Below, piece by piece: positions 27,016 to 58,960 of a DNA stretch of 64,000 nt. Made by a program: the position numbers and the translations under genes. How positions within the stretch are numbered: position 1 is the first letter of the stretch; the number at the start of each line of letters is the position of its first letter. A model generated the notes under the pieces. It was not told the DNA's origin and searched no databases. It saw nothing but the letters and a program-made list of their open reading frames with translations. The stretch is from assembly GCF_025273675.1 (NCBI RefSeq), contig NZ_CP045809.1, positions 2,232,001-2,296,000 of the forward strand, given 5' to 3'. This DNA is from Gordonia pseudamarae (GTDB lineage: Bacteria > Actinomycetota > Actinomycetes > Mycobacteriales > Mycobacteriaceae).

Positions 27016-27032
27016 GGGAACCTCATTTGTGG

Positions 27033-27106: not shown

Positions 27107-27128
27107 ATTGCGAGCAGAACTCGCTCCG

Positions 27129-29012: not shown

Positions 29013-29106
29013 TCTGCGATGTTATCCACAGGACCGCGGTGTGATGAATCCAACGCGTCGGGCCGATGTGGTAGGCGGCACCAGTGGAGCCGTCTACTGT
29101 AATCAC

Positions 29107-33058: not shown

Positions 33059-33237
33059 TTGAGTCCAGTGGGTGTTACGCGGCGGCGTGATCGGTCGTGG
33101 TGTCGGGCTTGTTGATCCAGGCGCTGGCCGGCAGGTTCAGGATCTTCGGTGTCGGGTCTGCGGGCGTGAATCGTTCGGGGTGGGCCAAACGGGCCGCGGT
33201 CAGCACACCAGTTCGCTGCGTTGCTTTGTCGGTGGCG
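33041..33237. repeat. 197-bp extra copy of the IS3-family right end
   Basis: Bases 33041-33237 are repeated exactly as 33238-33434, the terminal 197 bp of the complete IS copy that follows. The unit begins CGGAACTTGTCAAGGTGATT, the right terminal repeat of the element. Confidence 0.9.
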
Positions 33238-33271
33238 CGGAACTTGTCAAGGTGATTGAGTCCAGTGGGTG

Positions 33272-34276: not shown

Positions 34277-34710
34277 CAGTGCTTCTTGCGCGGCTCGTCG
34301 GTGTCCGCGCTCTCGGAGATCTGTTCCAAGAGCGCGTGCGCTTTTCCCATGATCTCCAGAGCCGCCTCGGTGGTGGCCAACCGCTTGCCGGTCCTGTCGA
34401 GTTCGCGTTTGAGTCGGGCGATCTCGACCTGCTCGGCGGTGAGCTTGCCGATCTTCACCCCAGCGGGTTTGCCGTCGAGGACACCGGCGTCGCGTTGTTT
34501 GCGCCATTCGCTGATCAGCGACGAGTACAGGCCCTCGGTACGCAGGTAGGCGCCGCCCTCGCCGCGCTCACAGGCCTGTTCATATGCGGCCAGGTGGGCG
34601 AGTTTGTCCGCCGGGGTGAACGTGCGGCGTCGGCGCGGACCGTCAGAACGCGGATGCGAGGAATCCATGCAGGCATTGTCCCCGGCCACGGCCAGGCTGG
34701 AAATTGTCAT
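34276..34710 (-). CDS. IS3-family transposase OrfA (copy 1)
   Basis: A 144-residue protein with an HTH_Tnp_1 domain (RRRTFTPADKLAHLAAYEQA; LYSSLISEWRKQRDAG) and a leucine-zipper-like C-terminal coiled coil (VEIARLKRELDRTGKRLATTEAALEIM). It binds the IS ends together with OrfB. Confidence 0.92.
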   Translation of the reverse strand: MTISSLAVAGDNACMDSSHPRSDGPRRRRTFTPADKLAHLAAYEQACERGEGGAYLRTEGLYSSLISEWRKQRDAGVLDGKPAGVKIGKLTAEQVEIARLKRELDRTGKRLATTEAALEIMGKAHALLEQISESADTDEPRKKH

Positions 34711-34788
34711 CGTGGGGTTGATCCGTATCTCGCCCTGCAGGCGGGTTTGCTCTGAACCGCTGGACTCAACTCACCCTGACACGCAGGG

Positions 34789-39806: not shown

Positions 39807-40985
39807 TCAGCTCCTCGTCCGAGATTGGGCGAACGCATCGACAAGCAAGCGTCCGATTGCCGCGCCCAGTGGGATGGGGACGGCATTGCCGATCTGCCGT
39901 GCGATTTGCTCGCGCGTCCCGACCCACCGGTAGTCCTCGGGGAATCCTTGGATTCGCGCCGCCTCGTAGTGGGTGATGACGCGGTCCTGGTCGGGATGGA
40001 TGTAGCGGCCCTTTTCCGGTTTGAAGAATTCGGTGCGAATGGTGACTGATGGCTTTTCCCAGGTCAGCCTGCCCATTACATCACCGGTTCCTTTGCTGTG
40101 TTTGAGCCAGCAGGGCGCCTTCAGATGATCGGGGAGTTCCGAACGACTGCCGCCGTTATGCGAGATCGCCTTGAAGCGATCGAGCGACAGTTGGGTGTAG
40201 GAACGCCCGAAATGCAGTTCGGCAGTATTGAAGGCGCCTCGCAACTCGTGTCCCTGATACTCGATGCTGCCAGCCGGGATGCCGATCCCGTCGACGGTGA
40301 GCGGTACGCCGTCAAGCGCCTTCGCAAGGCTGCGGTGTGCGCCTGTGTGGGTAGCCGCAGGGAGCCCGAGTGGTGGGAGGTCCTTGTGGTGACCGATGAC
40401 GATCACGCGCTTGCGTGCCTGGAACGCTCCGTAGTCCGCAGCGTTGAGGACGGCGACGCCGCCCTCGATCGCGTAGTCGCGGAGTATCCCATCGTGGAGT
40501 GCGCGCTGAAACACGTTCCACTGATCGGATTTGAGGAACGCCGGAACATTCTCCAGTACGAAGTACCTGGGCTGGGCCTTCTGGACGGTTTGCGCGTACA
40601 GGCGCCACAACTCGTTGCGGTGTGCACCGACACCGGCCCGATTGAGTGTGGAGAACCCCTGGCACGGCGGCCCTCCGACGACCACGTCAACCTTCGGGAC
40701 GTCGTCTTCCTTGAGCCAGTTCTCAATGTCACCCGCGTAAACGGATCCGCCTTCGACCCGTCCCTCACGGAGGCATCCGCCGTGGTTAAGTGTGTACGTC
40801 GCGGCAGCGGGGAGTTCCCATTCCACTGCCCGCGCAGTCCGGAACGTGCTGCTTTGAGCAGCATTCAACCCTGCGGACAGTCCGCCGGCTCCGGCGAACA
40901 GATCCAACGTCGTGATCGTCCCACCGTGAACTTCCGGACTTGTCGACGCAGCTCCGTCGTCGGACAATGGCGTGGGTGGGGTCAC
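39807..40985 (-). CDS. C5-cytosine DNA methyltransferase, copy 2
   Basis: A 392-residue Dcm-family enzyme with canonical motifs: I TLDLFAGAGGLSAGL, IV VVVGGPPCQGFSTLNR (catalytic Cys), VI YFVLENVPAFL, VIII FQARKRVIVIGHH, X QIARQIGNAVPIPLGAAIG. It starts 27 bases from the divergent vsr gene (41013), so the promoters must overlap coding sequence. Cytosine methylase plus Vsr are regular partners of the MORC/DUF4420/Z1 restriction-like systems, whose genes lie 11 kb downstream here. Confidence 0.95.
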   Translation of the reverse strand: MTPPTPLSDDGAASTSPEVHGGTITTLDLFAGAGGLSAGLNAAQSSTFRTARAVEWELPAAATYTLNHGGCLREGRVEGGSVYAGDIENWLKEDDVPKVDVVVGGPPCQGFSTLNRAGVGAHRNELWRLYAQTVQKAQPRYFVLENVPAFLKSDQWNVFQRALHDGILRDYAIEGGVAVLNAADYGAFQARKRVIVIGHHKDLPPLGLPAATHTGAHRSLAKALDGVPLTVDGIGIPAGSIEYQGHELRGAFNTAELHFGRSYTQLSLDRFKAISHNGGSRSELPDHLKAPCWLKHSKGTGDVMGRLTWEKPSVTIRTEFFKPEKGRYIHPDQDRVITHYEAARIQGFPEDYRWVGTREQIARQIGNAVPIPLGAAIGRLLVDAFAQSRTRS

Positions 40986-41012
40986 CGTACGAGACTAGCC
41001 GGCACAGGGAAT

Positions 41013-41437
41013 ATGGACAAGTCGCCAACCAGTTCGAGTGTTGACCGCGCCGCGACTGCTCGTCGGATGTCTCGGCAACGCACCCGTGACACTCGACCTG
41101 AGATGGCGCTTCGGCGTGAACTGCATCGGCGAGGTCTGCGTTATCGAGTCCATGCCCCGCTGCCAGGCATGCCACGTCGACGCGCGGATGCCCTGTTCCA
41201 CGGGCGAAGGTCGCGGTGTTCGTCGACGGATGCTTCTGGCACGGCTGTCCCGAACACAAGACCGCACCCGCCACCAATGCCGCATGGTGGGCGGCCAAGC
41301 TCAGCCGCAACGCGGAGCGGGATCGCGAGACCGACGCCCACCTGCGTGACATCGGTTGGACCGTGGTGCGGGTCTGGGAGCACGATGACATGACCCGGGT
41401 AGCCGGGGTAGTCGAACAGGCCGTCCGTCCGGAATGA
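41013..41437 (+). pseudogene. vsr: Vsr endonuclease, copy 2, frameshifted
   Basis: From ATG 41013 the frame reads ARRMSRQRTRDTRPEMALRR, RYRVHAPLPGMPRRRADALF, typical Vsr sequence. Near 41195-41207 one base is missing compared with the family, and the rest of the protein (VAVFVDGCFWHGCPEH, WWAAKLSRNAERD, WTVVRVWEHDD) continues in another frame to TGA 41435-41437. Together the parts make a complete Vsr of about 142 residues. Either the gene is inactivated or there is a sequencing error. Confidence 0.85.
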
Positions 41438-41601: not shown

Positions 41602-43545
41602 GTGTACCTGGAATCGTTGACGATTCGCAATTTTCAGTCGTTCGGGCCGAAACCCGAAACGATGACCTTTCGTCGGCGGCTGACTACCTTCCTGGGAACG
41701 AACGCAGCTGGCAAGACGGCCGCCTGCCAGGCGCTCCTGCGGATCTTCAGCGTCGTGCCCGAGCAGCGGCAGGTTCGCCCCGAAGATTTTCATGTGCCGT
41801 ACGACGAGACGACCGCACCGGACTCTCGCACGCTGACTGTCGACGCAGTCTTCGCGTTTCCCGAACTCGCCGGCGAAAGCGAGGAAGGTGCGGACCCGGC
41901 ACTGAGTGTGCCCGAGTTCTTCGCGCAGATGACGGCGGACCACGACGGAGTTCTGAAGCTCCGTATCGTTCTGGAAGCATCGTGGACCGACGACGGTTCC
42001 GTCAACGGAACGGTCGAGACCAGCCGACGTGTGGTGTACACCGCAGACAAGGACTACGGAGACAGGTGGCTTGAGCTTCGCGGCCAGGACCGCAATCGGA
42101 TTCAGATGGTCTACGTACCCGCCACGCGAGACGGTGTTCGCCAGGTGAACGCGTTTCTCCGTGGGCGAGTGTGGAACGCCGCCTTGTGGTCCGAAGATTT
42201 CCGCAGTGACGTCGACTCGGCCGCAGAGAAGCTCGTGAATGCCTTTCACCGAGAAGACGTTGCCCAGACTGTGACGGCCGCGATCTCGAGTCGATGGCAG
42301 GGTCTTCACCCTCTCGGAATTGATCAGGACCCGAGACTCCAGCTCATGAGCGGAGAAGCCGGCGATCTCGTGAAAGGCGCCGAGCTGTTCTTCGAGCCGT
42401 CGGCCACCTGTCGACCGCGACCCGCACGAGAGTTGAGTGACGGTCAGCAGTCGTTGCTGCACATCGCGCTGACGGCTACCGCGCTCGATATCGAGGCCGG
42501 GATTGTCGCAGGCAAGCACACCGACAAGTTCGACGTATCGGTTGCGACGCTACCCACGCTGACGCTGCTCGTTATCGAGGAACCCGAGAACAACCTGTCG
42601 CCGTTCTACCTCTCCCGCGTCGTTCAGCAACTTCTCGATGTCGCGGGCTCGGGGCGCGCTCAAGCACTCGTCTCAAGCCATTCGGCGAGCGTGATGTCGC
42701 GGATCGATCCCGAGCGCGTGCGCTATTTTCGCCTGGACCCGGTAGCGCGTACAACGACGGTTCGTGAAATCCACCTGCCGTCGAACGAGACCGATGCAGG
42801 CAAGTATGTGCGTGAAGCAGTTCGTGCACATCCCGAGCTGTACTTCGCCAAGTTCGTCGTGCTCGGCGAAGGTGACTCGGAGGAGTTGGTCATCCCCAAG
42901 CTCGCGGCCGCGAGGGGACTGCACATCGATCAGTCATTCGTTGCGATGGTTTCCCTCGGAGGGCGCCACACGAACCACTTCTGGAAGCTTCTCAATCAGC
43001 TCGACATCCCCCATGCGACACTGCTTGATCTGGACTATGGCCGAGACGGCGGTGGGGAGGGCCGAATCAAAGATGTGTGCGACCGCCTCGAGGACATTGG
43101 GACTGATCCGTACGACGGTATCGAGGGATATGCGGGCGCTTCGGACCTGAAGGACCTTGACGAGTCCCAGGTCAGGGCGTGGCTCGGCCACCTTGAGAAG
43201 TGCAACGTCTTCTTCTCCTATCCACTCGACCTCGACATGATGCTCCTGACAGCGTTTGAGGAGGCGTACACAACAAACCTGGGCGATGGTGCACAGGGAC
43301 CGAGGGACACTGATGCTCGGGACGCGGTCCTCGGCAGTGAGTCGGTGCGACCGAACGTGAACCTGTGGAAAGACCCGGCAGAAGAGGAGCGCCTCCGCTG
43401 GTACCGATATCTCTTTCTCACGCGATCCAAGCCAAGCACCCACCTGCGAGCGATGATTCAACTGACCGACGAGCAGTTGGCCAACCCGCCCGAGCCGCTG
43501 AATCGTCTGATCGGCTGTATCACCGAGAATCTTGGCCACTCGTGA
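41602..43545 (+). CDS. gajA: Gabija-like OLD-family ATPase/TOPRIM nuclease (GajA)
   Basis: A 647-residue protein. The N-terminal ABC-type ATPase has Walker A FLGTNAAGKTAACQALL (residues 31-46), the signature-like ARELSDGQQSLLHIAL and Walker B LLVIEEPENNLSPFYL with the downstream SSHSASV. The C-terminal TOPRIM domain shows VVLGEGDSEELVIPKL (catalytic Glu, about residue 423) and LLDLDYGRDGGG (DxD). This is the OLD layout. Directly followed by an overlapping UvrD-like helicase, it matches Gabija, in which GajA cuts DNA when nucleotides are depleted. The start is GTG 41602. Confidence 0.9.
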   Translation: MYLESLTIRNFQSFGPKPETMTFRRRLTTFLGTNAAGKTAACQALLRIFSVVPEQRQVRPEDFHVPYDETTAPDSRTLTVDAVFAFPELAGESEEGADPALSVPEFFAQMTADHDGVLKLRIVLEASWTDDGSVNGTVETSRRVVYTADKDYGDRWLELRGQDRNRIQMVYVPATRDGVRQVNAFLRGRVWNAALWSEDFRSDVDSAAEKLVNAFHREDVAQTVTAAISSRWQGLHPLGIDQDPRLQLMSGEAGDLVKGAELFFEPSATCRPRPARELSDGQQSLLHIALTATALDIEAGIVAGKHTDKFDVSVATLPTLTLLVIEEPENNLSPFYLSRVVQQLLDVAGSGRAQALVSSHSASVMSRIDPERVRYFRLDPVARTTTVREIHLPSNETDAGKYVREAVRAHPELYFAKFVVLGEGDSEELVIPKLAAARGLHIDQSFVAMVSLGGRHTNHFWKLLNQLDIPHATLLDLDYGRDGGGEGRIKDVCDRLEDIGTDPYDGIEGYAGASDLKDLDESQVRAWLGHLEKCNVFFSYPLDLDMMLLTAFEEAYTTNLGDGAQGPRDTDARDAVLGSESVRPNVNLWKDPAEEERLRWYRYLFLTRSKPSTHLRAMIQLTDEQLANPPEPLNRLIGCITENLGHS

Positions 43546-45482
43546 TACCGCCCGAGGAATGGAAACCGCACGGCATTGAAAACCTTGAGGATGCTGCCCG
43601 TCGCACACTGGCCGCTGCTTCCGCCGCAGTAATCGCCGGACCCGGTGCGGGGAAGACCGAGTTTCTTGCGCAGCGTGCGGCCTTCCTGCTCGAGACCGGG
43701 AAGTGTGCTGCCCCGCAGCGCATCCTCGCCATCTCTTTCAAGAAGGATGCTGCCCGCAACCTTTCGGAGAGACTCAAGGAGCGCGTACCCGAGCAGATCG
43801 ACAGGTTCGCATCGATGACATTCGACGCATTTACGAAGTCACTCGTGGACCGGTTCCGTAATCTGTTGCCCCCCGCATGGAAATTGACGGCCGAGTATGA
43901 AATGAGCTTTCCGAAGCGGGGTGATGTCAAGGAATTCCTCGATGAAATTGGTCGCACCGCGCCCGGTGATTTTCGGCACGACATCCGTCAATTGAACGCT
44001 GGCAAGTTCCTTAGCGATATTCTCGGCCCAGTCGCGCTTCGTGCTGTGCCACAGTCACCGACGAATGGTTGCAAGTACGCGATCAGTGAATGGTGGGGCA
44101 AGTACTATTTGCGCGACGGTGCGCCGGTTGTCGACTTCATCATGTTGAACCGTCTGGCCGAGCTGATCGTTCGTTCGAACCCACAACTACAGCGGGCGCT
44201 TCGGGCGACGTACCCATATCTCTTTATTGACGAGTTCCAGGACACCACGTACGCCCAGTACACGTTCCTCAAGTCAGTTTTCCCGAAGGCTTCGACCACT
44301 GTCACAGTCGTCGGGGACGGTAAGCAGCGCATTATGGGGTGGGCCGGTGCGTTACCGAACGCATTTGCCGAGTTCGCCGCAGATTACACCGACACCCGAT
44401 TCGAGTTGGAACGGAACTATCGCTCTCGACAAGAACTGGTCGACCTCCAACTGCGTTTCGCCCAGCGCCTCGACGCTGCTGTCCGTCCGCAGGTCTCACA
44501 TGTCGTCAGCGGTGACATCGGGATCGAACCCGTGCAGGCCTGGGACTTTTCCACCGCCACACTGGAGGCGCAGACCGTAGCGGCGTGGATCGTAGCCGAC
44601 ATCGAAAACAGCGGTCGGCGACCGTCGCAGTATGCGCTCATCGCCCGGCAGAAGGTGGCAAAGTTGCAGCCCGCACTTGTCGCAGCGTTCGCCGCGGTAG
44701 GTCGATCGATTCGCAATGATGACGCCTCCGTCGGCAAGTTGAAGCTCGGCGACATCCTCAAGGACGACCTCGTCGAGTTGCTGCTCGGCCTCGTACGGCT
44801 CGGAGCGTCACGCGGAGGTCAACCCGAGGCGTGGCGAAGGGTCACGACGACACTGGCTCGTATCAGGCCCGAGGACTCCGCACGACAGGTGGGTAGCCGG
44901 CTGGACGACGAGCTTTCCGACTTCCTGACCTCCCTACGTCGGTGGTTCGCCGCCACACCGTTGGGTCGAACCGTCAGTCAGGACGTCGCGGCCGGCAACG
45001 AGGCTACCGCGCAGGAACTCGCTGACGAGTTGTCGCGATTCCTGCGTTTGGACGAGGCCGCGAACAGGCGCGTGTTCTCCGATCGTGCGGAGGACATCGA
45101 TGTGCGATTCGAAGCCTTCACGGTCCGTCTGGCGTGGGCTCTGGGGAAGGTCGATACATGGCCCGAGGTTGCCGACGCGTTCCTGGAGGACGACGCGGTG
45201 CCCTTGATGACGATCCATCGCAGCAAAGGGCTGGAGTACCACACGGTCTTCGTCATCGGTCTGGATGGCGATCAGTGGTGGGCGCACACCAAAGACACGG
45301 CCGAATCGACGATGACGTTCTTCGTCGGGATGTCCCGCGCGGCCGAACGGCTGTTCTTCACCAGTTGCGATCGGAGAGGTGGGCGCAGCAAGGTAGCCGA
45401 TCTGTATCGCGAACTTGAGGCTGGCGGTGTGCAGTCAGTGAGGTGGGAACGGCGTCGTCTCGGCGTCGAGGTAGGCCAGTGA
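43542..45482 (+). CDS. gajB: Gabija-like UvrD/Rep-family helicase (GajB)
   Basis: A 646-residue SF1 helicase. Walker A VIAGPGAGKTEFLAQR (about 30-45), motif II YLFIDEFQDT (about 225), VVGDGKQRIMGWAGA (motif III), LERNYRSRQEL (motif IV), MTIHRSKGLEYHTVFVIG (motif V) and FVGMSRAAERLFF (motif VI) are all present. The start is GTG 43542, overlapping the TGA of the upstream OLD gene, which fixes coupling. A longer upstream frame is not needed. It is followed after 77 bases by the DUF1156 gene. Confidence 0.9.
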   Translation: MIPPEEWKPHGIENLEDAARRTLAAASAAVIAGPGAGKTEFLAQRAAFLLETGKCAAPQRILAISFKKDAARNLSERLKERVPEQIDRFASMTFDAFTKSLVDRFRNLLPPAWKLTAEYEMSFPKRGDVKEFLDEIGRTAPGDFRHDIRQLNAGKFLSDILGPVALRAVPQSPTNGCKYAISEWWGKYYLRDGAPVVDFIMLNRLAELIVRSNPQLQRALRATYPYLFIDEFQDTTYAQYTFLKSVFPKASTTVTVVGDGKQRIMGWAGALPNAFAEFAADYTDTRFELERNYRSRQELVDLQLRFAQRLDAAVRPQVSHVVSGDIGIEPVQAWDFSTATLEAQTVAAWIVADIENSGRRPSQYALIARQKVAKLQPALVAAFAAVGRSIRNDDASVGKLKLGDILKDDLVELLLGLVRLGASRGGQPEAWRRVTTTLARIRPEDSARQVGSRLDDELSDFLTSLRRWFAATPLGRTVSQDVAAGNEATAQELADELSRFLRLDEAANRRVFSDRAEDIDVRFEAFTVRLAWALGKVDTWPEVADAFLEDDAVPLMTIHRSKGLEYHTVFVIGLDGDQWWAHTKDTAESTMTFFVGMSRAAERLFFTSCDRRGGRSKVADLYRELEAGGVQSVRWERRRLGVEVGQ

Positions 45483-45559: not shown

Positions 45560-48400
45560 ATGACTAGCACGCCCGACGCCCCGATCCGCAAGAAGCTGAT
45601 CGAGGTGTCGATTCCGCTGGAGGACATCAATACCGAATCCGCTCGGGAGAAGTCCATCCGACACGGCCACCCGTCGACACTGCACCTCTGGTGGGCACGC
45701 CGCCCACTCGCCGCAGCTCGTGCCGTACTGTTCGCACAGCTCGTCGACGACCCGTCCTGCAATCCGGACCTGACCGAGGACGAGCAGAAGGTAGAGCGGG
45801 AACGACTGCATGGGATCATCCGGCGCCTGGTCAAGTGGGAGAACGTCAACAACGAAACCGTACTCGGTGAGGCGCGAGCGGAGATCTTGAAATCCACGGG
45901 CGGCAACCCGCCGGCGATCCTCGACCCGTTCGCCGGCGGCGGAACCATCCCGCTGGAGGCGCAGCGGCTCGGCCTGGAGGCTCACGCCTCCGATCTTAAC
46001 CCGGTGGCAGTACTCATCAACAAGGCACTCATCGAGATACCGCCGAAATTCGCCGGACGGCCCCCCGTGTTTCCGGGAGCGGCCGAGGAGAAGCTGGGCG
46101 ACTGGCCGCGAGCGACGGGTCTGGCGGAGGATGTGCGCCGGTACGGCGCCTGGATGCGGGACCAAGCCAAGGAACGCATCGGCCACCTGTACCCCGACGC
46201 GACGATCGTGGACGAGACGACAGGCAAGAAGGCGAATGCGACAACGATCGCCTGGATCTGGGCTCGCACCGTCACCTGCCCCAACCCGGCCTGCGGTATC
46301 GAGATGCCGCTCGTACGCTCGTGGTGGCTCGGGAAGAAGAAGGGCAAAGAGGCATATATCGTGCCCGTAGTGGTCGACGATGAGCGTGCGCGAAGTGGAC
46401 GGCGAATTGAATTCAGTGTCGGTCACGACATGGGAAAAGCGCCAACCAAAGAATCTGACGGAACGATGTTGGCAGCGCGTGGCGCAATGTGCGTCGCGTG
46501 TGGCACTTTCAGCCCGCTGGCGGAGATCCGGAAAAGCGCAATTGCCAATGGTTATGGGACGCAGTTACTTGCTGTCGCAGCTGTTGGAAATCGACGCCGC
46601 GTCTACGTCCCAGCAACACCCGCGCATGTCAGAGCTGCCGACGTTGCAGCACCGCTTCGCCTTCCCGGTGGCAAGCTCGCAGAGAACCCACGTTGGTTCT
46701 CGCCACCCCAGTACGGACTTACTAAGTTCTCTGACCTGTTCACGAACCGGCAACTGGTGGCACTTACAGTGTTCAGTGACCTCGTGTCTGAGGCGCGAGA
46801 GCAAGTTCTGAAAGATGCACTTGCGTCGGGGTTCTCGCCTGGGGGGCGCCGTTCAGACGATGAGAGCGGTGCGGAGTCGTACGCTGACGCTGTTGCGACA
46901 TATCTCGGAATGGCGGTTTCTCGTCTCGCTTCAACTAACTCGGCGCTCTGCCGATGGAATTCGGCGCCCTCAAAGGAGAGCGTCTCCGATACCTTCGCGC
47001 GCCAAGCGCTCCCGATGGTCTGGGACTACGCAGAGGGGAATCCGTTCTGTAAAGGACCGTGCGACATGGAGTCGAGCGCGACCTGGGTGTCGCGCGCGCT
47101 GGACTTTTTGCCTGCAATGCCCCTCGGAACGGTTTCCCAGGCTGATGCAAGTAGTCGTCACTACCGGGGCGTGGTTGTTGCAACTGATCCGCCGTATTAT
47201 GACAACATCGGCTACTCGGATTTGTCGGACTACTTCTATGTGTGGCTCCGAATCACCCTGCGGACCATTCAACCTGAGTTGTTCGCATCTATGCTTGTTC
47301 CGAAGGCCGACGAGTTGGTTGCAAACCCGTACAGGCACGGTGGACGTGGTGGGGCAGAGGAGTTCTTTGAGACAGGTTTCGAACGGGTCTTTGCCCGCGC
47401 TCGAGATGGCGCTTCTAGTGACTTTCCAATTACAGTCTTCTATGCGTTCAAGCAGTCGGAACTTGCTGCAGAGGGAGTAACGAGCACCGGGTGGGCGACC
47501 ATTCTGGAAGGTATGATCCGCGAGGGCTGGTCCATAACAGCTACTTGGCCAGTGCGGTCAGAACGTAGCGGCCGGATGATTTCGGTCGGCACGAACGCGC
47601 TCGCGTCATCGATAGTCCTAGTTCTTCGTCCGCGGTACGAAACCGCGAGGCAGGCCACACGGCGTGGATTCCTTACTGCGCTCCGCCAGGAACTTCCCAA
47701 GGCACTGGAAGAACTGCGCCAGGGAGCAATCGCCCCGGTTGACCTCACGCAGGCCACCATTGGCCCGGGTATGGCTGTGTTCTCGAGCTACACACGTGTT
47801 GTTGAGAACGACGGTAGCGACATGACCGTCAAGGCTGCGCTCAGATTGATCAACCAGGCCCTTGATGAGGTGCTTGGCGAGCAGGAGGGCGATCTCGACG
47901 CCGACACGCGCTTCTGCATTAAGTGGTACGAGCAGCACGGCTGGGACAAGGGACTGTTCGGCGACGCCGACGTACTCGCTCGCTCGTACGACACGTCTGT
48001 TCGCGGTGTCGCCGACTCGGGTGTGCTGACGCAGGGCGAAGGCAACGTGCAGCTCATTGAACCGGTGAAGCTTCCGGAGACATGGAACCCGGTCACCGAC
48101 GATCGGATTTCGGTGTGGGAGGTGATGTGCCACCTCGGCCGGGTGCTGACGGTCGAGGACGGCGGATTGGAGCCGGCGGCCCAGCTCATGGCGGCTGCGG
48201 CCACCCGCCCCGAGATCGACATGGAAGCCGTGCAGCGCCTGGCGTATCGGCTCTACGAGATGACCAAGACGACCCGGACCGACGACGCGCGCATGTTCAA
48301 CTTGATCGGCGGATCGTGGACGGACCTCACCGAGGTTGCGGGTCGCGTGCAGGAGTCGGACGGAGTACAGACTGAGATCGACTACGAGGATGAGAGCTGA
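45560..48400 (+). CDS. DUF1156 DNA methyltransferase of an anti-phage operon
   Basis: A 946-residue protein. The N-terminus has the DUF1156 signature (KLIEVSIPLEDINTESAREK; HPSTLHLWWARRPLAAARA). A SAM-binding motif LDPFAGGGTIPLEAQRLG (about residue 121) and an amino-methylase motif IV, DPPYYDNIGYSDLSDYFYVWL (about 543), predict N6-adenine or N4-cytosine methylation in a permuted order. Two Cys pairs (CPNPACG, CVACG) may bind zinc. The middle third (about 46380-47950) has distinctly lower GC than both ends. Stop overlaps the DUF499 start (ATGA). Confidence 0.9.
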   Translation: MTSTPDAPIRKKLIEVSIPLEDINTESAREKSIRHGHPSTLHLWWARRPLAAARAVLFAQLVDDPSCNPDLTEDEQKVERERLHGIIRRLVKWENVNNETVLGEARAEILKSTGGNPPAILDPFAGGGTIPLEAQRLGLEAHASDLNPVAVLINKALIEIPPKFAGRPPVFPGAAEEKLGDWPRATGLAEDVRRYGAWMRDQAKERIGHLYPDATIVDETTGKKANATTIAWIWARTVTCPNPACGIEMPLVRSWWLGKKKGKEAYIVPVVVDDERARSGRRIEFSVGHDMGKAPTKESDGTMLAARGAMCVACGTFSPLAEIRKSAIANGYGTQLLAVAAVGNRRRVYVPATPAHVRAADVAAPLRLPGGKLAENPRWFSPPQYGLTKFSDLFTNRQLVALTVFSDLVSEAREQVLKDALASGFSPGGRRSDDESGAESYADAVATYLGMAVSRLASTNSALCRWNSAPSKESVSDTFARQALPMVWDYAEGNPFCKGPCDMESSATWVSRALDFLPAMPLGTVSQADASSRHYRGVVVATDPPYYDNIGYSDLSDYFYVWLRITLRTIQPELFASMLVPKADELVANPYRHGGRGGAEEFFETGFERVFARARDGASSDFPITVFYAFKQSELAAEGVTSTGWATILEGMIREGWSITATWPVRSERSGRMISVGTNALASSIVLVLRPRYETARQATRRGFLTALRQELPKALEELRQGAIAPVDLTQATIGPGMAVFSSYTRVVENDGSDMTVKAALRLINQALDEVLGEQEGDLDADTRFCIKWYEQHGWDKGLFGDADVLARSYDTSVRGVADSGVLTQGEGNVQLIEPVKLPETWNPVTDDRISVWEVMCHLGRVLTVEDGGLEPAAQLMAAAATRPEIDMEAVQRLAYRLYEMTKTTRTDDARMFNLIGGSWTDLTEVAGRVQESDGVQTEIDYEDES

Positions 48401-51400
48401 TGGCGAAGAGCAACATCGAGACTGTACGCACCGCACTCCAAGCTCTGTCGGAGGTCCTCGACCCGTACATTGAGCAGGTCACAGCCAAATATGTGCCGGC
48501 AGGCAAGGATTGGACGGTGCTTCTCGCGGCGAAGGACGCCGAGAAGAGAATTCAGGGAAAGTCGTACTCGCGCACCGACCCGCAGGATCAGTTCCGGATC
48601 ATTACCGAACCCATCTCGTCACTCGGTTACCTCTTCAATAAACATCTTTCCCGGGGTGAGCAGGGTTTCGTGGGGGAGTTGCGCAGAGTGCGCAACGACG
48701 TCGCACACTTCAAACCGTTCTCGCCCGACGACGCGGTCCGTGCGTTGGACACGATCGAGCGGGTCATGCGTGCCATTGGTGCGGTGCGTGAGGCCGACGC
48801 GGTCCACACGTCGCGGTTGGACATTTTGCGTGGCAGCTTCGAACAACAAACCCGTAAGGCAGTGCGCACTGCGGCGGCGCTCCCCGGCACACCCGATGCT
48901 GAACTGCCGTCGTGGCGGGGCGTGCTCGAACCGCACCCCGACGTCGCCTCCGGCCGATACAACAACGCCGAGTTCGCCGCCGACCTGTACTCGGTCGCCG
49001 TGCAGCAGAACGCGGCCGCCGAATACCAGGACCCGGTCGAGTTCTTCCGCCGCACCTACCTCACCGACGGCCTCACCGATCTCCTGCGCAGAGCCGTGGA
49101 CCGTATCTCGGGTTCGACGACCGCCAACCCGGTGATCAACCTGCAAACCACCTTCGGTGGCGGTAAAACCCACTCCATGCTGGCCGTGTGGCACCTGTTC
49201 TCCGGACGTGCGCTGCACGAGTTCCCGCAAGGTGTACAGGAGTTGCTCGCCGGCGAGAACACCGAAGTCCTTGGCAAGCCGGTGCACAAGGCCGCGCTGG
49301 TCGGCAACGAGATCCCACCCGGAACCCCGACCAAGAAGCCCGACGGCACCGTGGTGCACACCCTATGGGGCGAGCTGGCCTGGCAACTCGGTGGTGCGGA
49401 AGGATACGCGATCGTCGCCGACGCCGACCGGACCGGAACCAACCCCGGCAGCCTACTGCGTGACCTGTTCACCACGTTCGGGCCGGCCGTCGTACTGATC
49501 GACGAATGGGTTGCCTACGCCCGACAACTCCCCGACAGCTACGACGAGAAGGACTCCCAGGCACGCCGCGTGGCGGCCGGCCTGTTCGAGACCCAATTCA
49601 CGTTCGCCCAGTCGTTGACGTTGGCCGCAGAAAGCGTGCCCGGCACACTGTTGGTGGTATCGGTGCCCGCCAGCGAGCGCAAGGAGGTACCCGGCGGAGC
49701 GGCCGACGCCGAGGCCACCACGGCGAGCGATCTGGAAGTCGGTGGCCAACGCGGCCATGACGCCCTACAACGCTTGGACAACGTGATTCGCCGCGTCGCC
49801 TACCAGTGGAGCCCGGCGACCCGAGACGAATCCTACGAGATCGTGCGGCGGCGACTCTTCGTTGAACCGGATGCGCGGGCGATCGCCACCATCGCCGCAG
49901 CGGCCCGCCGGTTCACCGACTACTACCGCCACCATCCCAAGGAGTTTCCGACCGGCGTCGGGGCGTCCGACTACGAGGCGCGTATCAAGGCTGCGTATCC
50001 GATTCACCCTGAACTGTTGGACAGGCTCTACTCGGACTGGTCCACTCTGGAAAAGTTTCAACGCACTCGGGGCGTCCTGCGTTTCATGAGCCACGTCGTC
50101 CATCAGCTCTACCAACTCGAAGATCCGTCACCGCTGATCATGGCCGGATCGGTTCCCCTGGACGCACAACCGGTGCGCTCGGAGATCGTGCAATACGCAG
50201 GCACCGCCTGGGATGCGATCCTCCAGTCCGAGATCGACGGTGAGAATGCGGTCGCCCGCATCGTCGACGCCGAACGCCCGGCCCTGGGTGACCGCTCGCT
50301 TGCCCTACGCACGGCGCGCGCGATCTTCGTGGAATCCACCCCGACCCTCAATGCCGCACTCAAGGGCAAAGACCGCAAACGCATCACGCTCGGTGTCGCG
50401 ATGCCCGGTGATGTGCTGGGCAACATCGGGTCTGCGCTGGACGGCCTGCAGGAGAAGTCGTCGCACTACTACTCCGAGGACGGAAGGTACTGGTATGACA
50501 CCCAACCGTCGCTCAACCGGCTCGCCGCAGAACGTGCCGCACAGCTATCGACAGATGCAGTGCACGCAGAGGTCACGACCCGACTCAAGCGGGCATTCAA
50601 AGGCTCCACCGACATCATTGCCGACGTCATACACCCCGAAACGTCATCGGATGTCGAGGAAGCCGACTATCTGCGCCTGGTCGTAGTGCCGCCGCAATAC
50701 ACCCACAACGGCAAGGGCAAGGACTCCGCTGCCTCCAAATGGGTGCACGACCTGCTACGGCAACGCGGCAATGCCCCGCGCTCGAACGTGAATACCATCG
50801 TTGCCGTTGCGGCGGACGACAAACAATGGGGAACACTCGAATCCGCGGTGCGCTCCTACCTTGCATGGAACTCCATCTTCAGCGACACCGCACGCCTGGA
50901 CCTGACCCAATCGGCAGCCGCACAAGCGCAGTCGATGCTGGAAACCCAGAATCGGACGGTCGACGACCGACTGGCCCACACCTGGATCTGGGGATTGCAC
51001 GCGGTACAGGACGATCCGAAGGCACCGTTCGTCGTCGGACAGGTACGGGCCACCGGACAGGAGAAGAACCTCACCAAACGCATCGGCACCAAGCTCGGCT
51101 CCGTCGACGCCGCTCACTCCTACGTCGCCAATCGGGTCGTCCGCCTGGACATCGAGGAGTTCCTGCGCGCGCGATGGACACGAGGATTCATCAGCTTCAC
51201 CGAACTGTGGGCCTACTACTGCCGCTACCCCTACCTACACCGGCTGCGCGATAAGTCGGTGCTGGTCAGGGCGCTGGAGGAAACGCTGTTCGACTCGGCC
51301 TTCGTCGATACCGGATTCGCGCTCGCCACCGGGTTCGACTCGACCACCGGCGACTTCCTCGGACTGACAGTTCCGGTGGAGGACACGGAGTTCGGTCCGT

Positions 51401-51816
51401 TCGACGAGAAGACGTTGGTCGTGCGGCCGGATCTTGCAGTCGCACAGCGTGAGCGTGAACACGAACAGAAGAACGAACCGGCTCCCGATCCGTCGCCTTC
51501 CCCGACGCCGGGTCCGGGACCGGGACTCAAAGTTCCACCTGTGCAACCGGTCTCGCCGCAGCCTTCCGCCAAGGTCGCCAACGCGACATTCTCTCTCCGA
51601 CATGTCGTCGACCCCGCCGCGGACATGCCCGGCGACCTGCACACGATCGCCCAAGAAATCCTGGAGGTACTACGAAACGCCGGTCCGGACGTCCTGGACA
51701 TCACGTTGACCGTCGATGCGCAGAAAGCCGACGGCTTCGACGCCAATACCGTCAGAGCGGTGAAGCAGAACGCCGGCGATCTCGGCGTGTCGAACAGCGG
51801 TTTCAAGGACCTGTAG
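48400..51816 (+). CDS. DUF499 ATPase with N-terminal Swt1-type HEPN domain
   Basis: A 1138-residue protein. Residues 1-125 form a HEPN-like helical domain with the RNase motif R98-NDVA-H103 (VRNDVAHF). A DUF499 ATPase domain follows, with Walker A LQTTFGGGKTHSMLAVW (about 246-262) and Walker B AVVLIDEWVAYARQLP (about 361). The C-terminus has a Pro-rich linker (PDPSPSPTPGPGPG) and a small domain. DUF499 and DUF1156 are regular partners in anti-phage islands. ATG 48400 overlaps the DUF1156 stop; the TAG stop overlaps the GTG of the next gene. Confidence 0.9.
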   Translation: MAKSNIETVRTALQALSEVLDPYIEQVTAKYVPAGKDWTVLLAAKDAEKRIQGKSYSRTDPQDQFRIITEPISSLGYLFNKHLSRGEQGFVGELRRVRNDVAHFKPFSPDDAVRALDTIERVMRAIGAVREADAVHTSRLDILRGSFEQQTRKAVRTAAALPGTPDAELPSWRGVLEPHPDVASGRYNNAEFAADLYSVAVQQNAAAEYQDPVEFFRRTYLTDGLTDLLRRAVDRISGSTTANPVINLQTTFGGGKTHSMLAVWHLFSGRALHEFPQGVQELLAGENTEVLGKPVHKAALVGNEIPPGTPTKKPDGTVVHTLWGELAWQLGGAEGYAIVADADRTGTNPGSLLRDLFTTFGPAVVLIDEWVAYARQLPDSYDEKDSQARRVAAGLFETQFTFAQSLTLAAESVPGTLLVVSVPASERKEVPGGAADAEATTASDLEVGGQRGHDALQRLDNVIRRVAYQWSPATRDESYEIVRRRLFVEPDARAIATIAAAARRFTDYYRHHPKEFPTGVGASDYEARIKAAYPIHPELLDRLYSDWSTLEKFQRTRGVLRFMSHVVHQLYQLEDPSPLIMAGSVPLDAQPVRSEIVQYAGTAWDAILQSEIDGENAVARIVDAERPALGDRSLALRTARAIFVESTPTLNAALKGKDRKRITLGVAMPGDVLGNIGSALDGLQEKSSHYYSEDGRYWYDTQPSLNRLAAERAAQLSTDAVHAEVTTRLKRAFKGSTDIIADVIHPETSSDVEEADYLRLVVVPPQYTHNGKGKDSAASKWVHDLLRQRGNAPRSNVNTIVAVAADDKQWGTLESAVRSYLAWNSIFSDTARLDLTQSAAAQAQSMLETQNRTVDDRLAHTWIWGLHAVQDDPKAPFVVGQVRATGQEKNLTKRIGTKLGSVDAAHSYVANRVVRLDIEEFLRARWTRGFISFTELWAYYCRYPYLHRLRDKSVLVRALEETLFDSAFVDTGFALATGFDSTTGDFLGLTVPVEDTEFGPFDEKTLVVRPDLAVAQREREHEQKNEPAPDPSPSPTPGPGPGLKVPPVQPVSPQPSAKVANATFSLRHVVDPAADMPGDLHTIAQEILEVLRNAGPDVLDITLTVDAQKADGFDANTVRAVKQNAGDLGVSNSGFKDL

Positions 51817-53342
51817 TGGCGTCGATGTCCGCGCCCCAACCGATCGGATCCCGGGTCGCCCCGCCCGACCCGTCGATCACTTCGGCGATCGGTAGGCACC
51901 ACACACTGGCGTCCGCAGTGGCCGACCTCGTCGACAACAGCGTCGACTGCGGCGCCGCGCACGTGCTCGTCCGATTCCTGATGCGGGGAGCACGCCCGGT
52001 CGGGCTGCGGGTAATCGACGACGCGTCGGGGATGGACTCGGCGGGCATCGACAATGCGATGACCTACGCGCGGAAACGGGACTACCGAGGTGGTGACCTC
52101 GGACACTTCGGTATCGGCCTCAAAGCCGCATCCCTCAGTCAGGCAAATACGTTGATCGTGTGGTCGCGGCGCTACGGTTCACCGCCGGTCGGCCGGCGCC
52201 TGCGCAGAGAGACCATCGACACAGGTCCGGTGGTTGAGGAATTCTCCGTTGCCGACGCCACCGACCACCTGGCCGACGCACAAGTCGGATTTCCGATGAA
52301 ATCCGGCACCATCGTGGAGTGGCAGGACGTCCAAACGTTCCTTACCTCGTCAAGTGACGTCGAACAGCGGATGTGGACCAACGAAACCGTCCAGACATTG
52401 GTCAATCATCTCGGCCTTGTGCTGCATCGGATACTGGAACGCGGCGACCTGACACTGGTCATCGACACCTTCGATGTGGAACTCAACTTTCCCGGCCCGC
52501 CTCGGCCGGTCCGTCCCATCGATCCGTTCGCCCATCGAGGTGCGGGACGGCCCGGGTACCCCAAGGACTTGCCCGTCGTAGTCGGGGGCGTGACCGGCGT
52601 GGCCCGATTGCACATTTGGCCCCATCACGACAAGAGCATGGGATTGGTGCAGGGCGGGCGCTCGGAGAGCGAGTCCCAGGGACTCTACATCTACCGCAAC
52701 GACCGACTCCTACAGACCGGTGGTTGGAACGGGCTGGCTACGCCGAGTACTGACCTGGGTTATGCGCGCGTGGCATTCGACCTTTCAGTCGAGCTGGAAC
52801 GTCATGTGACGATCAACCCCGAAAAGGTCGGGACGACGTTCGACGACGAACTGCGTAGCGCATTCGTACACGCACGGACAGCGGACAATACGACGCTCGA
52901 ATCCTTCCGGGAGGATGCGAGGCGAGCCGAGAAGGTTTCCAAGCAACGCGTGGCCTCGCCGATCGAGGCGCCCATGCCGGGCGACGGGCTACCGGTTTCG
53001 GTTAAGGTTGCGTTCGCCACCCACACCGAACCCAACGACGGCTACCTGATCGACATCCGGTGGAGTCTCCTACCTGCCGACCAGATTTACGCCATCGACC
53101 TCGATGATCATCGGCTTGTCCTGAACGCCAGGTACCGGTCTGCCATCGTGGGGCACCCCAGCCTCGACATCGACGACGCGCCGCTGGTCAAGAGCCTGCT
53201 GCTGCTGCTGCTCGAAGACCACTTCGTCGGCACCGGCGGCGGAGCGAAAAAGAAGCGTGAGAACGTCGCTTGGCAGGCAATTCTCCTCGCCGCAGTTCAC
53301 GAGCAACATGCGCAAGGGAAGGTGACAACGCACGATGAGTGA
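51816..53342 (+). CDS. GHKL ATPase of the MORC/MutL-like restriction class
   Basis: A 508-residue protein with a Bergerat-fold ATPase: N box LASAVADLVDNSVD (31-44), G1 box VIDDASGMD (66-74), G2 box LGHFGIGLKAASLSQA (95-110). A transducer-like domain follows (about 260-350). Proteins of this type are encoded with a DUF4420 nuclease, a Z1 helicase, a cytosine methylase and Vsr in restriction-like systems described by Iyer and colleagues as relatives of MORC. The start is GTG 51816 overlapping the DUF499 stop, or ATG 51825. It overlaps the next gene by 8 bases. Confidence 0.85.
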   Translation: MASMSAPQPIGSRVAPPDPSITSAIGRHHTLASAVADLVDNSVDCGAAHVLVRFLMRGARPVGLRVIDDASGMDSAGIDNAMTYARKRDYRGGDLGHFGIGLKAASLSQANTLIVWSRRYGSPPVGRRLRRETIDTGPVVEEFSVADATDHLADAQVGFPMKSGTIVEWQDVQTFLTSSSDVEQRMWTNETVQTLVNHLGLVLHRILERGDLTLVIDTFDVELNFPGPPRPVRPIDPFAHRGAGRPGYPKDLPVVVGGVTGVARLHIWPHHDKSMGLVQGGRSESESQGLYIYRNDRLLQTGGWNGLATPSTDLGYARVAFDLSVELERHVTINPEKVGTTFDDELRSAFVHARTADNTTLESFREDARRAEKVSKQRVASPIEAPMPGDGLPVSVKVAFATHTEPNDGYLIDIRWSLLPADQIYAIDLDDHRLVLNARYRSAIVGHPSLDIDDAPLVKSLLLLLLEDHFVGTGGGAKKKRENVAWQAILLAAVHEQHAQGKVTTHDE

Positions 53343-54318
53343 ACCGTCATGGAAACTGAATCCGGACACATTGGAGAAATACTTTCGGAGCGGGACCGTT
53401 ACGACCCACACTGTGAGCGAGACCCCCGAGATCATCATCAGGATCGACGGTCCCGGGCAAAAGATCTCACTGCTGACTCCGCACACCGGCATGGTTCAGG
53501 ACACTGCCGCACTAAAGCGAGTAAGCACCGGTGTCGAGACTCGAAACGGGTGTGACTGGGGTCGGTTCACCGTTGACGCGCGCAATATGCACGCCGAGGC
53601 ATACGGACTGATGCTGTCCATCGTCCAGGCGATGCACGGTGGCGCGACCTTCGCCGCCGCAACGTCGGCTGCGATGACCAACATGAAAGCGATCCTCGCC
53701 GCCAAGCCTCGACTGTCGACGGAGAAGCAGATAGGGCTGGTCGGTGAACTTCTGGTGTTCAGCGCCATGCTGGACACTTTCGACGAGGACACCATCATTG
53801 ACTGGTGGTTGGGCCCGCTGGCCGAAGATCGTGACTATGCGTTTCCCGCCTTCGACGCCGAAGTGAAAACCACTTTGGGTGAGACCCGAGTCCACGTCAT
53901 CAACGGCGCAAGTCAACTCGAACCGAGCCCCGGTCGGCCGTTGTGGCTGGTATCGATCCAGGTCATTCGTGCCGGAGGCGATCCGAACGGGTTCACCCTC
54001 CCCGGCCTGATACAGGACATCCGCGACCGCCTGACCGCAACACGCGAACGGTACGCGACATACCTGGCCTCAGTGGGCTGGGAAGACGACGACGCCGCAA
54101 TCTATCCGACCGCGTACGTCCTCCGTACCACCCCGGCAGCATACCTCGTCGACGACGATTTCCCTGCGGTGACGCCCGGCCGCCTGCATTCGGTCGTTCC
54201 GCACAGCGACCTTGTCAGTGCCGTGACGTACCGTGTTGACGTCTCCTCGCGTATGCCCGGAGACCCGGGGGAACCGCTCACCGGATTCATCAGTGCAACA
54301 CCTACGCAGGAGGCGTGA
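53335..54318 (+). CDS. DUF4420 PD-(D/E)XK nuclease
   Basis: A 327-residue protein. The nuclease core has the helix Glu in QIGLVGELLVFSAML, then WWLGPLAEDRDYAFPAFDAEVKTT, with the Asp and the ExK pair, and VHVINGASQLEP afterwards. This is the PD-(D/E)XK protein of the MORC/Z1 restriction-like systems and the probable DNA-cutting subunit. It overlaps the GHKL ATPase gene by 8 bases, and the Z1 gene starts 2 bases after its stop. Confidence 0.88.
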   Translation: MSEPSWKLNPDTLEKYFRSGTVTTHTVSETPEIIIRIDGPGQKISLLTPHTGMVQDTAALKRVSTGVETRNGCDWGRFTVDARNMHAEAYGLMLSIVQAMHGGATFAAATSAAMTNMKAILAAKPRLSTEKQIGLVGELLVFSAMLDTFDEDTIIDWWLGPLAEDRDYAFPAFDAEVKTTLGETRVHVINGASQLEPSPGRPLWLVSIQVIRAGGDPNGFTLPGLIQDIRDRLTATRERYATYLASVGWEDDDAAIYPTAYVLRTTPAAYLVDDDFPAVTPGRLHSVVPHSDLVSAVTYRVDVSSRMPGDPGEPLTGFISATPTQEA

Positions 54319-54319
54319 C

Positions 54320-56599
54320 GTGACCGATCCGTACACCGATGCAATCGTGAGTGTCGTCCGCGGTATGAGCAAGAGCGAACCCAAGCCGATGCTCAAGCGA
54401 GTACGGTTCGAACTGGACGACGCGGGCGTGGGCGACGATTTCTCGGAGACTGATCTCGTCGATGCGATCACCTCCGCGGATTCCAACAGCCCGGCCCGTT
54501 TCGAGTTCCACATCCAGCTGTCCAAGTGGGATGCGGTGTCTGACGCCGCTTGGGCGCCCGGCGCGCCAGAGCACTCGGTGGAGCGGCGGAGCAATGCCCT
54601 TACTGCACTTGGGTTTTCAGACCGCGCTCAGGAGCGGATAAACCACGCTTTCCAAGTGAGCCTGTCGGGGGCCACAGTAATCTCCGACAAACCGGCGGAC
54701 TGGGACCCCTGGTACCACACGGAGGGAGTCCGTTCCTTCTATTGGGACGGATACCGGGGCGTCCTGGAATCGAAGGGGTGGGATGCCACGGCGATCGGCG
54801 AATTGAGCCGCGCCACCGACGAGGTGGTCAAACGGCTCGCGAATCCCGAACGGGACGAGCCCTACCAGTCGAAAGGTCTCGTGGTCGGGCACGTTCAGTC
54901 CGGAAAGACCGCGAACTTCACCGGTGTCATCGCGAAGGCGATAGACGCCGGCTATAAGCTCATCATCGTTCTCACCGGGACGATCGAGTTGCTGCGCAGT
55001 CAGACCCAGCGGCGCCTTGACATGGAACTCGTGGGGGAGGAGAACATTCTCGGCGGCGTGCCCCGAGATGACGATGAGCTGACCGCGACCGTCGACTACA
55101 TAGGTAGCGGTGACATCGATTGGTTGGACGGAAAGTTCGTCTCCTACGGAAAGGACCCCAGGGAACTCGGGTTCCCCGGAATCCGCCGGTTGACGGGAGC
55201 CAGCGACGACTACAAACTTCTCAAGGCCGGTCTGGGCTTCCTTGATTTCCGTCAGACCGACCACCTCGTTGATCCGGCCCGTCCGCTGTACGATCCGCTC
55301 AACCTCTACCGGCCGGACATTCGTATCGCCGTCGTCAAGAAGAATTCGACAGTTCTGAAGAAGCTCGTCAGTGACTTGAAGTCCACAAAAACGGATCTCG
55401 GTGAGATCCCTACGCTCATTATCGATGATGAAGCCGATCAGGCATCGATCAATACCACCAGACCGAAGAAACCGAAAGACAAAGAGTCCAAGGAGGCAAG
55501 AGAGCGCACCGCAATCAATGGTTGGATTTCAGAGCTACTGATCCGACTGAAGCGCGCACAATATATCGGCTACACAGCAACTCCTTTTGCGAACGTCTTT
55601 GTTGACCCTGAGGACTCGGAAGACCTGTTTCCGAAGGACTTCATCGTCAGCCTCGATCCACCGCCGGGCTATATGGGCGGAAAATCGTTTCACGATCTCG
55701 ACGACGAAGTCCCGGACGTCGACGACACAGCCGACGAGGAACGGACCGTCGCAAACTCCAACGAGAAGGCATTCGTGCGCTCCCTGGTGGCCGACCCGGA
55801 TGATATGGACGCGCGGGACAAGGAAATGCTCCAGGCTCTCGACGCGTACGTCCTAGCCGGGGCAGTCAAGCTACACCGATCCTCGGTCCTCGGACAGCCG
55901 AAACTCTTCCGCCACCACACGATGCTCGTCCACGAGTCGGTCAACACGGCCGAGCACGCGGCGCTGGCCAACGACATCCGCAAAGTGTGGGCGTCGGCAG
56001 GCTACGACCTGCCGATGGGTCTCAAGCGACTCCAGGACTTGTGGAACGCAGACTTCCGACAGGTGACCGAGGCTCGTGCTCCGGAGGCCCCCGCGATCGC
56101 CGCCTTCGCCGACCTGATCACCCACATCGGGCACGCGGTGGACAAGATCCAGGAGGGAGTGAACCCCGTCGTCATCGTCAACGGGGTGGCGGAGAAGGAC
56201 TACCTGCAGGACGACATCAACTTTCAGGCCGGGGATGTGTGGAAGATCCTGGTCGGCGGTGCCAAGCTTTCTCGGGGCTTCACGGTCGAAGGCCTGACGG
56301 TGTCCTACTACACACGCAGGACGATGGCAGCCGACACACTCATGCAGATGGGACGCTGGTTCGGATATCGGGCAGGTTATCGTGACCTGGTACGACTGTA
56401 TATCGGCCGCAACGTACCCGGCCCGAGAAATACCGTTGTCGACCTGTATCGGTCGTTCCAGGCGGTAGTGCGCGACGAAGAGGATTTTCGTGAGGAACTC
56501 CGCCGCTTTCAGGGGTTCCCTGCGTGTCAGGGTGAGTTGAGTCCAGCGGTTCAGAGCAAACCCGCCTGCAGGGCGAGATACGGATCAACCCCACGATGA
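54320..56599 (+). pseudogene. Z1-domain helicase, 5' part, split by IS3 copy 2
   Basis: From GTG 54320 (AGGAGG at 54308-54313) the frame codes for 732 residues of a Z1 SF2 helicase up to the IS junction at 56517, then 26 codons read into the IS. Motifs: Walker A LVVGHVQSGKTANFTG (about 187), Walker B LIIDDEADQASINT (about 365), YIGYTATPFANVF (about 414), GGAKLSRGFTVEGLTVSYY and MQMGRWFGYRAGY (about 674). The helicase core is thus present, but the C-terminal 295 residues are cut off. The undisturbed gene would code for 1028 residues. Confidence 0.92.
56515..56517. repeat. Target site duplication GTT (left)
   Basis: GTT precedes the IS at 56515-56517 and recurs directly after it at 58069-58071; removing the IS and one GTT restores the Z1 frame as FQGFNDDG. 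Confidence 0.85.
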
Positions 56600-57030
56600 C
56601 AATTTCCAGCCTGGCCGTGGCCGGGGACAATGCCTGCATGGATTCCTCGCATCCGCGTTCTGACGGTCCGCGCCGACGCCGCACGTTCACCCCGGCGGAC
56701 AAACTCGCCCACCTGGCCGCATATGAACAGGCCTGTGAGCGCGGCGAGGGCGGCGCCTACCTGCGTACCGAGGGCCTGTACTCGTCGCTGATCAGCGAAT
56801 GGCGCAAACAACGCGACGCCGGTGTCCTCGACGGCAAACCCGCTGGGGTGAAGATCGGCAAGCTCACCGCCGAGCAGGTCGAGATCGCCCGACTCAAACG
56901 CGAACTCGACAGGACCGGCAAGCGGTTGGCCACCACCGAGGCGGCTCTGGAGATCATGGGAAAAGCGCACGCGCTCTTGGAACAGATCTCCGAGAGCGCG
57001 GACACCGACGAGCCGCGCAAGAAGCACTGA
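56596..57030 (+). CDS. IS3-family transposase OrfA (copy 2)
   Basis: 144 residues, the same protein as OrfA of copy 1: N-terminal HTH and C-terminal leucine-zipper-like helix. The stop overlaps the orfB ATG. Confidence 0.93.
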   Translation: MTISSLAVAGDNACMDSSHPRSDGPRRRRTFTPADKLAHLAAYEQACERGEGGAYLRTEGLYSSLISEWRKQRDAGVLDGKPAGVKIGKLTAEQVEIARLKRELDRTGKRLATTEAALEIMGKAHALLEQISESADTDEPRKKH

Positions 57031-58034
57031 TGGCCACCCATCACGACCTGACCGAGGCCGGCGTGAGCACCCGGGCAGCCACCTCGCTGACGGCGGTGAC
57101 GCGATCTACCGCCGCCCGCAGCAGGGCGCGCAGGCAGTGGCCGGCACCGGCCGCGAGGAAGGTGCCCGTGAACAAGCTCACCGACGCCGAACGCGCCCGC
57201 GTGTTGACGATGTTGAACTGTGACCGGTTCGTCGACCAGGCCCCGCTCGAGGTGTATGCGCAGCTGCTCGACGAGGGCATCTACCTGTGTTCGGTATCGA
57301 CGATGTACCGGATCCTGCGGGAGAACAAACAGGTCACCGAGCGGCGCCGGCAGGCCCGACACCCCACCCGCACCTGCCCGGAGCTGGTCGCGACCGGGCC
57401 CCGGCAGGTCTATACCTGGGACATCACGAAGCTGCCCGGGCCGGTCAAGGGCGTCTACTACGACGCCTACGTGATGGTCGACATCTACTCCCGCTACATT
57501 GTCGGCGCCCACGTACAAACCCGCGAATCAGCAGTACTCGCAGTGGAATTCATGACCGACGTCTTCAGGGTTCATGGCACACCAACGGTGGTGCACGCCG
57601 ACCGGGGAACATCGATGACCAGCAAACCGGTCGCAGCGCTGCTCGCGGACCTCGAGGTGACCCGGTCACATTCGCGACCGAAGGTGTCCAACGACAACCC
57701 GTACTCCGAATCACTGTTCAAGACCCTCAAGTACGGGCCCACGTTCCCGCAAAGGTTCGGATCCATCCACCACGCCCGGGACTTCCTCGACACGTTCGTG
57801 ACCTGGTACAACCACGAACACCGGCACACCGGCATCGGCCTGCACACCCCGGCCGACGTCCACTTCGGCCTCGCCACCGACAAAGCAACGCAGCGAACTG
57901 GTGTGCTGACCGCGGCCCGTTTGGCCCACCCCGAACGATTCACGCCCGCAGACCCGACACCGAAGATCCTGAACCTGCCGGCCAGCGCCTGGATCAACAA
58001 GCCCGACACCACGACCGATCACGCCGCCGCGTAA
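57030..58034 (+). CDS. IS3-family transposase OrfB (copy 2)
   Basis: 334 residues, the same protein as OrfB of copy 1, with intact DDE residues (WDITK, HADRGT, SESLF). A longer frame beginning inside orfA in the same phase exists, but ATG 57030 overlapping the orfA stop is the natural start; -1 frameshifting to OrfAB is also possible. Confidence 0.93.
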   Translation: MATHHDLTEAGVSTRAATSLTAVTRSTAARSRARRQWPAPAARKVPVNKLTDAERARVLTMLNCDRFVDQAPLEVYAQLLDEGIYLCSVSTMYRILRENKQVTERRRQARHPTRTCPELVATGPRQVYTWDITKLPGPVKGVYYDAYVMVDIYSRYIVGAHVQTRESAVLAVEFMTDVFRVHGTPTVVHADRGTSMTSKPVAALLADLEVTRSHSRPKVSNDNPYSESLFKTLKYGPTFPQRFGSIHHARDFLDTFVTWYNHEHRHTGIGLHTPADVHFGLATDKATQRTGVLTAARLAHPERFTPADPTPKILNLPASAWINKPDTTTDHAAA

Positions 58035-58068
58035 CACCCACTGGACTCAATCACCTTGACAAGTTCCG

Positions 58069-58960
58069 GTTCAACGATGACGGCAGACCCCGCGTGCGGC
58101 CAATGGATGTTCCGCCGTTGGTGTATCAAAGCCTGCCGTACCTCAAGCCGACGAGCGGCACCAAAATGTACAATGCGGAACTCACCGAGCAGGGGGAGGG
58201 TGGCAAGGTCGTCGACTTCAACCAGCAGGGTGAACACGACGACCAGGTCAATTCGCATCACTTCGAAGCTGTGCAGGATCTGCTTGATGCCGCAAATGCC
58301 GACGGAGAGTTCTTCTATATCAATCCTGCTGGTGCGCCGAGGCCGTGGTACGCGCGATACGGGATAGTTGATGCCGAATCGCTGATCGACGTTGTCGGTA
58401 AGTTCAGGTGGGCGAACAACTTCAGGTTCGATCCCTACGTTGCGTTCATGCGTAAGGCGATCAAGGAGGGAACGCTCAAGGATTGGGTGGTCATCGTGCC
58501 TCAGATTGCCTCGCTCCCGACGAGAACGGTCTGCGGACGTGAGCTGAAGGTCATGCGTCGATTTCGCCGCGACGATCGGCCCTGGCAGTTCTCGGGTTCA
58601 TCGACTCGTCAGCGTGATGCGTTGTATGCACTTTCCAATGGAATCGACGCCGAGACGATCGACGTCGACGGCGCGATCGCTGCAGCCCTCGAACTGCCCG
58701 AGTACGCACACATCAAGGGCCTCAGGGCCGCGACACGCGGCGCATTCCTGTTGACCTTTGCCGGTGACAGCACATCGGCACGATTCCACGACGCGAAGGG
58801 CGTGACCGACCCGAAACTGTTGCCCGACGTAACCGACCCGAAGCACATTGCGACGCTGTTCTCGTGCGCACTGCCGTTGGCGTCGGCGCCGGCAGGCCGA
58901 ATCGCATTCAAGGTTCGCCGAAAAGATCTCCCCGACGATCCGATAGTGACGGACTTGTAG
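58069..58960 (+). pseudogene. Z1-domain helicase, 3' part after the IS
   Basis: 295 codons that continue the Z1 protein: PRVRPMDVPPLVYQSLPYLKPTSGTKMYNAEL (the conserved region after the helicase core in Z1 proteins), then FRWANNFRFDPYVAFMRKAIKEG and a C-terminal alpha/beta region ending in RKDLPDDPIVTDL. No start codon with a ribosome site precedes it, so it is probably untranslated. In related systems an AIPR gene may follow; none is present here before the right-end IS remnants. Confidence 0.92.

Follow-up and report, generated by a model that had tools for sequence, protein, structure and literature searches.

Which parts of a defence operon must stay together, and which can be exchanged, is the question raised by a row of genes in a 64,000-nucleotide stretch of Gordonia pseudamarae (GCF_025273675.1, NZ_CP045809.1, 2,232,001-2,296,000; hereafter the window, with positions counted from its start). 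Here the methylase and ATPase genes of an Hma module, HmaB and HmaC, run into a MORC module made up of a GHKL ATPase, a putative nuclease and a Z1 helicase. Two DNA-defence modules that are usually apart are thus joined in one row, in this genome and in several other actinobacteria, and since the MORC module brings a superfamily 2 (SF2) helicase and a PD-(D/E)XK candidate where the Hma helicase HmaA is missing, it is suggested that the HmaA-less Hma module borrows the DNA cutter of the MORC module. The parts of the row are as follows.

39807..40985, minus strand, divergent to the operon: Dcm, C5-cytosine DNA methyltransferase (profile 568.8 bits)
41013..41434 (about), plus strand: Vsr endonuclease, frameshifted here, its two halves in different frames (three-frame translation)
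45560..48400, plus strand: HmaB-like DNA amino-methyltransferase, DUF1156 (PF06634 1.1e-28; PADLOC HmaB 1095 bits)
48400..51816, plus strand: HmaC-like HEPN-DUF499 ATPase (PF18731 and PF04465; PADLOC HmaC 771 bits)
51816..53342, plus strand: MORC-family GHKL ATPase (PF13589 2.8e-18; MORC motif GLYIYRNDRLL)
53335..54318, plus strand: DUF4420 putative PD-(D/E)XK nuclease (residues E138, D167, E176-x-K178)
54320..56517, plus strand: Z1 helicase (PF10593 2.5e-50; NCBIfam MzaC 295.5 bits, under the cut-off of 1500)
56518..58077, plus strand: insertion sequence, IS (NCBIfam transpos_IS3 158.6 bits, slightly under the cut-off of 160)
58078..58960, plus strand: last listed part of the row, after the IS

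Profiles and motifs bear out the initial annotation, which had placed a DUF1156 methylase, a HEPN-DUF499 protein, a GHKL ATPase, DUF4420 and Z1 on one strand and had linked the last three to a cytosine methylase and Vsr. HmaB, whose mechanical open reading frame begins at 45494, has the motifs DPFAGGG and DPPYYDN; HmaC has a HEPN domain at residues 12-127 with R-x4-H, Walker A GGGKTHS and Walker B LIDEW; and all six PDB sequence matches of the GHKL protein at E<=0.01 are MORC2. Dcm matches PF00145 at the locus as well as the PADLOC DruM/MTase_II models, and shares 77% identity with the Dcm next to the composite locus L043 of Mycobacterium sp.; the Vsr profile matches lie in two frames, at 41120-41434 and 40050-41390.

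Conservation of the junction

The DUF499–GHKL junction pointed out in the initial annotation is not unique to this genome. A GHKL-seeded scan of genome contigs found HmaC directly upstream of GHKL in 13 of 22 loci, a count that is biased by the seed and is no frequency (L022 and L042 are one Gordonia amarae contig, counted once). These 13 loci span five orders and come from Williamsia, Propioniciclava, Mycobacterium, Amorphoplanes, Isoptericola, Promicromonospora, Actinotalea, Acidimicrobiales, Gordonia amarae, Yonghaparkia, Propionicimonas, Pseudoclavibacter and Leucobacter; eight of the other loci hold the MORC module without Hma and one a GHKL fragment only. HmaC-seeded searches, which carry no bias towards GHKL, gave matches in 17/61 relatives' genomes and 35/296 genomes of an even phylum sample (both E<=1e-3), in 20/296 genomes of an even class sample (E<=1e-100) and in 13/398 Pseudomonadota (E<=1e-60). 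GHKL stood next to HmaC in 4 of 76 distinct HmaC loci with inspected flanks (the window, G033, G038 and G617), flanks elsewhere being often short or stopped by a contig end; part of the flank set spans about 1.5 kb at most, and part of the loci are distant DUF499 proteins, 25-31% identical. The 76 comprise 17, 45 of 48 (L001, L003 and L013 being repeats), the window and 13; not every HmaC match of the phylum and class samples was given a locus. With 12 additional GHKL-seeded loci the composite total is 16, and within the even phylum sample a GHKL match above 160 bits occurs only in the window's own genome. The composite of Hma and MORC is rare.

All five genes are present in 13 of the 16 composite loci; L049 and L120 show HmaB-HmaC-GHKL only, the available DNA ending there, and L025 is without HmaB. 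The HmaC and GHKL genes overlap by one base in 11 of the 16. The MORC motif occurs in all 14 composite rows covering it, and the helicase motif of the window, DTLMQMGRWFG, is exact in 10 of 13 and one residue off in L022, L046 and L058. The initial annotation's proposal that both sets act as one composite system is partly supported.

In the HmaC tree the composite proteins form one clade. Trees made by the 'quick' method have Shimodaira–Hasegawa-like approximate likelihood ratio (SH-aLRT) support only, and from the trees HmaC matches below 820 residues (10/59), L025, L078, L089, short HmaB pieces (10/42) and, for GHKL, L049 were dropped; one further comparison leaves out L120 and has the L049 GHKL partial. 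A single clade means that a single join could be enough, and this raises the possibility that neighbours in a defence island came together once by chance and were then passed on jointly with no functional interaction. The window is such an island, with Gabija, a second restriction cluster and transposases, and linked genes are expected to co-diverge even without interaction; nevertheless, this scenario is considered improbable.

The missing helicase

HmaA lies nearby in 14 of 15 non-composite HmaC loci of the relatives set, the exception, L024, stopping at a contig end; that of L026 consists of Snf2 and NOV_C (PADLOC HmaA 1282 bits). In the even phylum sample, 17 of 19 genomes with HmaC at E<=1e-150 carry HmaA at E<=1e-60 (exceptions G201 and G329), the window's own genome being among the 17 through a second Hma locus at 1.67 Mb, which is broken. 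Neither the window nor any other composite locus gave an HmaA reading frame in a profile search. Whole-genome searches covered 14 composite genomes, the window genome and G617 not among them: 13 lacked HmaA at E<=1e-60, and the remaining one, G356, has a partial HmaA on another contig. In the window's own genome HmaA lies 0.6 Mb from the row, beside the broken second locus. Absence of HmaA is by itself weak evidence, because only 31/296 phylum-sample genomes carry HmaA at E<=1e-60; what counts is the contrast with HmaC-bearing genomes.

An alternative reading, regarded as doubtful, leaves this contrast (HmaA gone from 13/14 composites and present in 17/19 strong-HmaC genomes) unaccounted for, as it does the one-base overlap of HmaC and GHKL and the open five-gene rows whose loci yielded no Dcm (L046, L048) or a Dcm remnant (L039, whose genome has another Dcm, 49% identical, about 40 kb off).

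In the exchange of effectors favoured here, a reading held at about even odds, the MORC module would bring an SF2 helicase and a PD-(D/E)XK candidate of its own in place of HmaA. The helicase-nuclease of a BREX-related system may thus be exchangeable as a module, the likely hinge being HmaC, encoded by the gene that overlaps that of the MORC ATPase. The row ties the little-understood bacterial MORC ATPases to one particular AAA+ partner and one particular methylase, and two questions become testable: the role of DUF499 ATPases and that of MORC in restriction.

In the window genome the helicase gene is broken by the IS, of which a 1560-nt inverted copy (100%) lies at 33229-34788. It is rather probable that in this genome the locus is no more than a decaying relic, a reading that concerns the strain, not the family, and is compatible with the readings of the family. 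Nevertheless, the reading frames of Dcm and of HmaB, HmaC, GHKL and DUF4420 are all open, the latter four with their motifs retained, so HmaBC could still act.

Two further observations concern Hma loci. In the second, classical locus (L023, 1657000-1676500 of the same genome) the HmaA frame is open, HmaC is in two frames and HmaB matched at its ends only; in L025:8528-9300 (G038) the beginning of a helicase-like frame runs in frame into mid-HmaC, a fusion that seems to have arisen by deletion.

Relation to known systems

The Type-1 DUF499-centred BREX-related (BR) system is Hma, composed of the helicase HmaA, the methylase HmaB and the ATPase HmaC. The row shares with it relatives of HmaB and HmaC, HEPN head included, and the window HmaC nests among Type-1-like HmaC in the tree. 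Both the DUF499 AAA+ ATPase, often with an N-terminal HEPN (PF04465, PF18731, R-x4-H), and a predicted DUF1156 DNA methylase (PF06634, PADLOC HmaB, DPPY motif) are found, scoring below the cut-offs of the separate NCBIfam models DUF499_antiphage (132.4 against 1200 bits) and DUF1156_antiphage (121.7 against 1000). The only fold match of the HmaC model at E<=0.001 was the BrxC-BrxB fusion 9zn5 (E 7.2e-6, probability 1.00), yet with template modelling (TM) scores of 0.28/0.40. Unlike Type-1 BR, the row has no Swi2/Snf2 helicase HmaA, usually accompanied by a PD-(D/E)XK nuclease; a survey (PMC12839542) gives Swi2/Snf2 as the helicase family of all BR systems and the DUF1156 methylase as N6-type, and HmaB is called a 5-methylcytosine (m5C) enzyme in PMC8565338. 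The only HmaA profile match at a composite locus, that in L047, was rejected as DrmD-like (414 bits against 170 for HmaA).

The third MORC restriction operon type of Iyer, Abhiman and Aravind (2008, PMC2292703) comprises a distinct SF2 helicase, a restriction endonuclease (RE)-fold nuclease and MORC, often with a cytosine methylase and Vsr. Its quoted motifs, MORC GhXhhpXXRhl and helicase DThhQXuRhFG, are found here, as are an E-D-ExK nuclease, Dcm and Vsr; it differs in that HmaB and HmaC here lie directly upstream of the MORC gene and overlap it. Scores for MzaB, MzaC and MzaD of the anti-phage system MZA are all far below the NCBIfam cut-offs (111.9/850, 295.5/1500 and 72.5/420 bits), and the restriction systems CglI / NgoAVII differ as a three-gene system with a phospholipase D (PLD)-type nuclease and without HmaBC.

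Neighbouring features

Between Vsr and HmaB, outside the unit, lies the Gabija pair (41602..45482).

41602-43545, plus strand: Gabija GajA (PADLOC 729 bits)
43365-45482, plus strand: Gabija GajB (PADLOC 593 bits)

The cargo of this gap varies, with other genes in G. amarae (L022:2036-6819) and none in L043. A family of about 600 residues occurs at window 37780-39621, L022:2036-3958, L043:15749-17533 and L026:13244-15121. The last three members form one cluster, found next to classical Hma loci as well as composite ones; the window member, outside the clustering, has the same weak PADLOC HEC-07/NsnC matches, which the window, L022 and L043 members share. No Pfam match was found for the window and L022 members tested.

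The second restriction cluster (28327-32009) holds Vsr (28327-28806, minus strand), a C5-methylase (28969-30249, plus strand), a GIY-YIG protein (30137-31030) and DUF4928 (30960-32009). Near it is tRNA-Val(cac) at 27428-27500. At 26606-27201 stand tRNA-Val(gac), Cys(gca) and Gly(gcc) as two successive triplets, resembling a tandem duplication of the trio. A 197-base tandem duplication (98%) at 33034-33427 borders the other IS copy.
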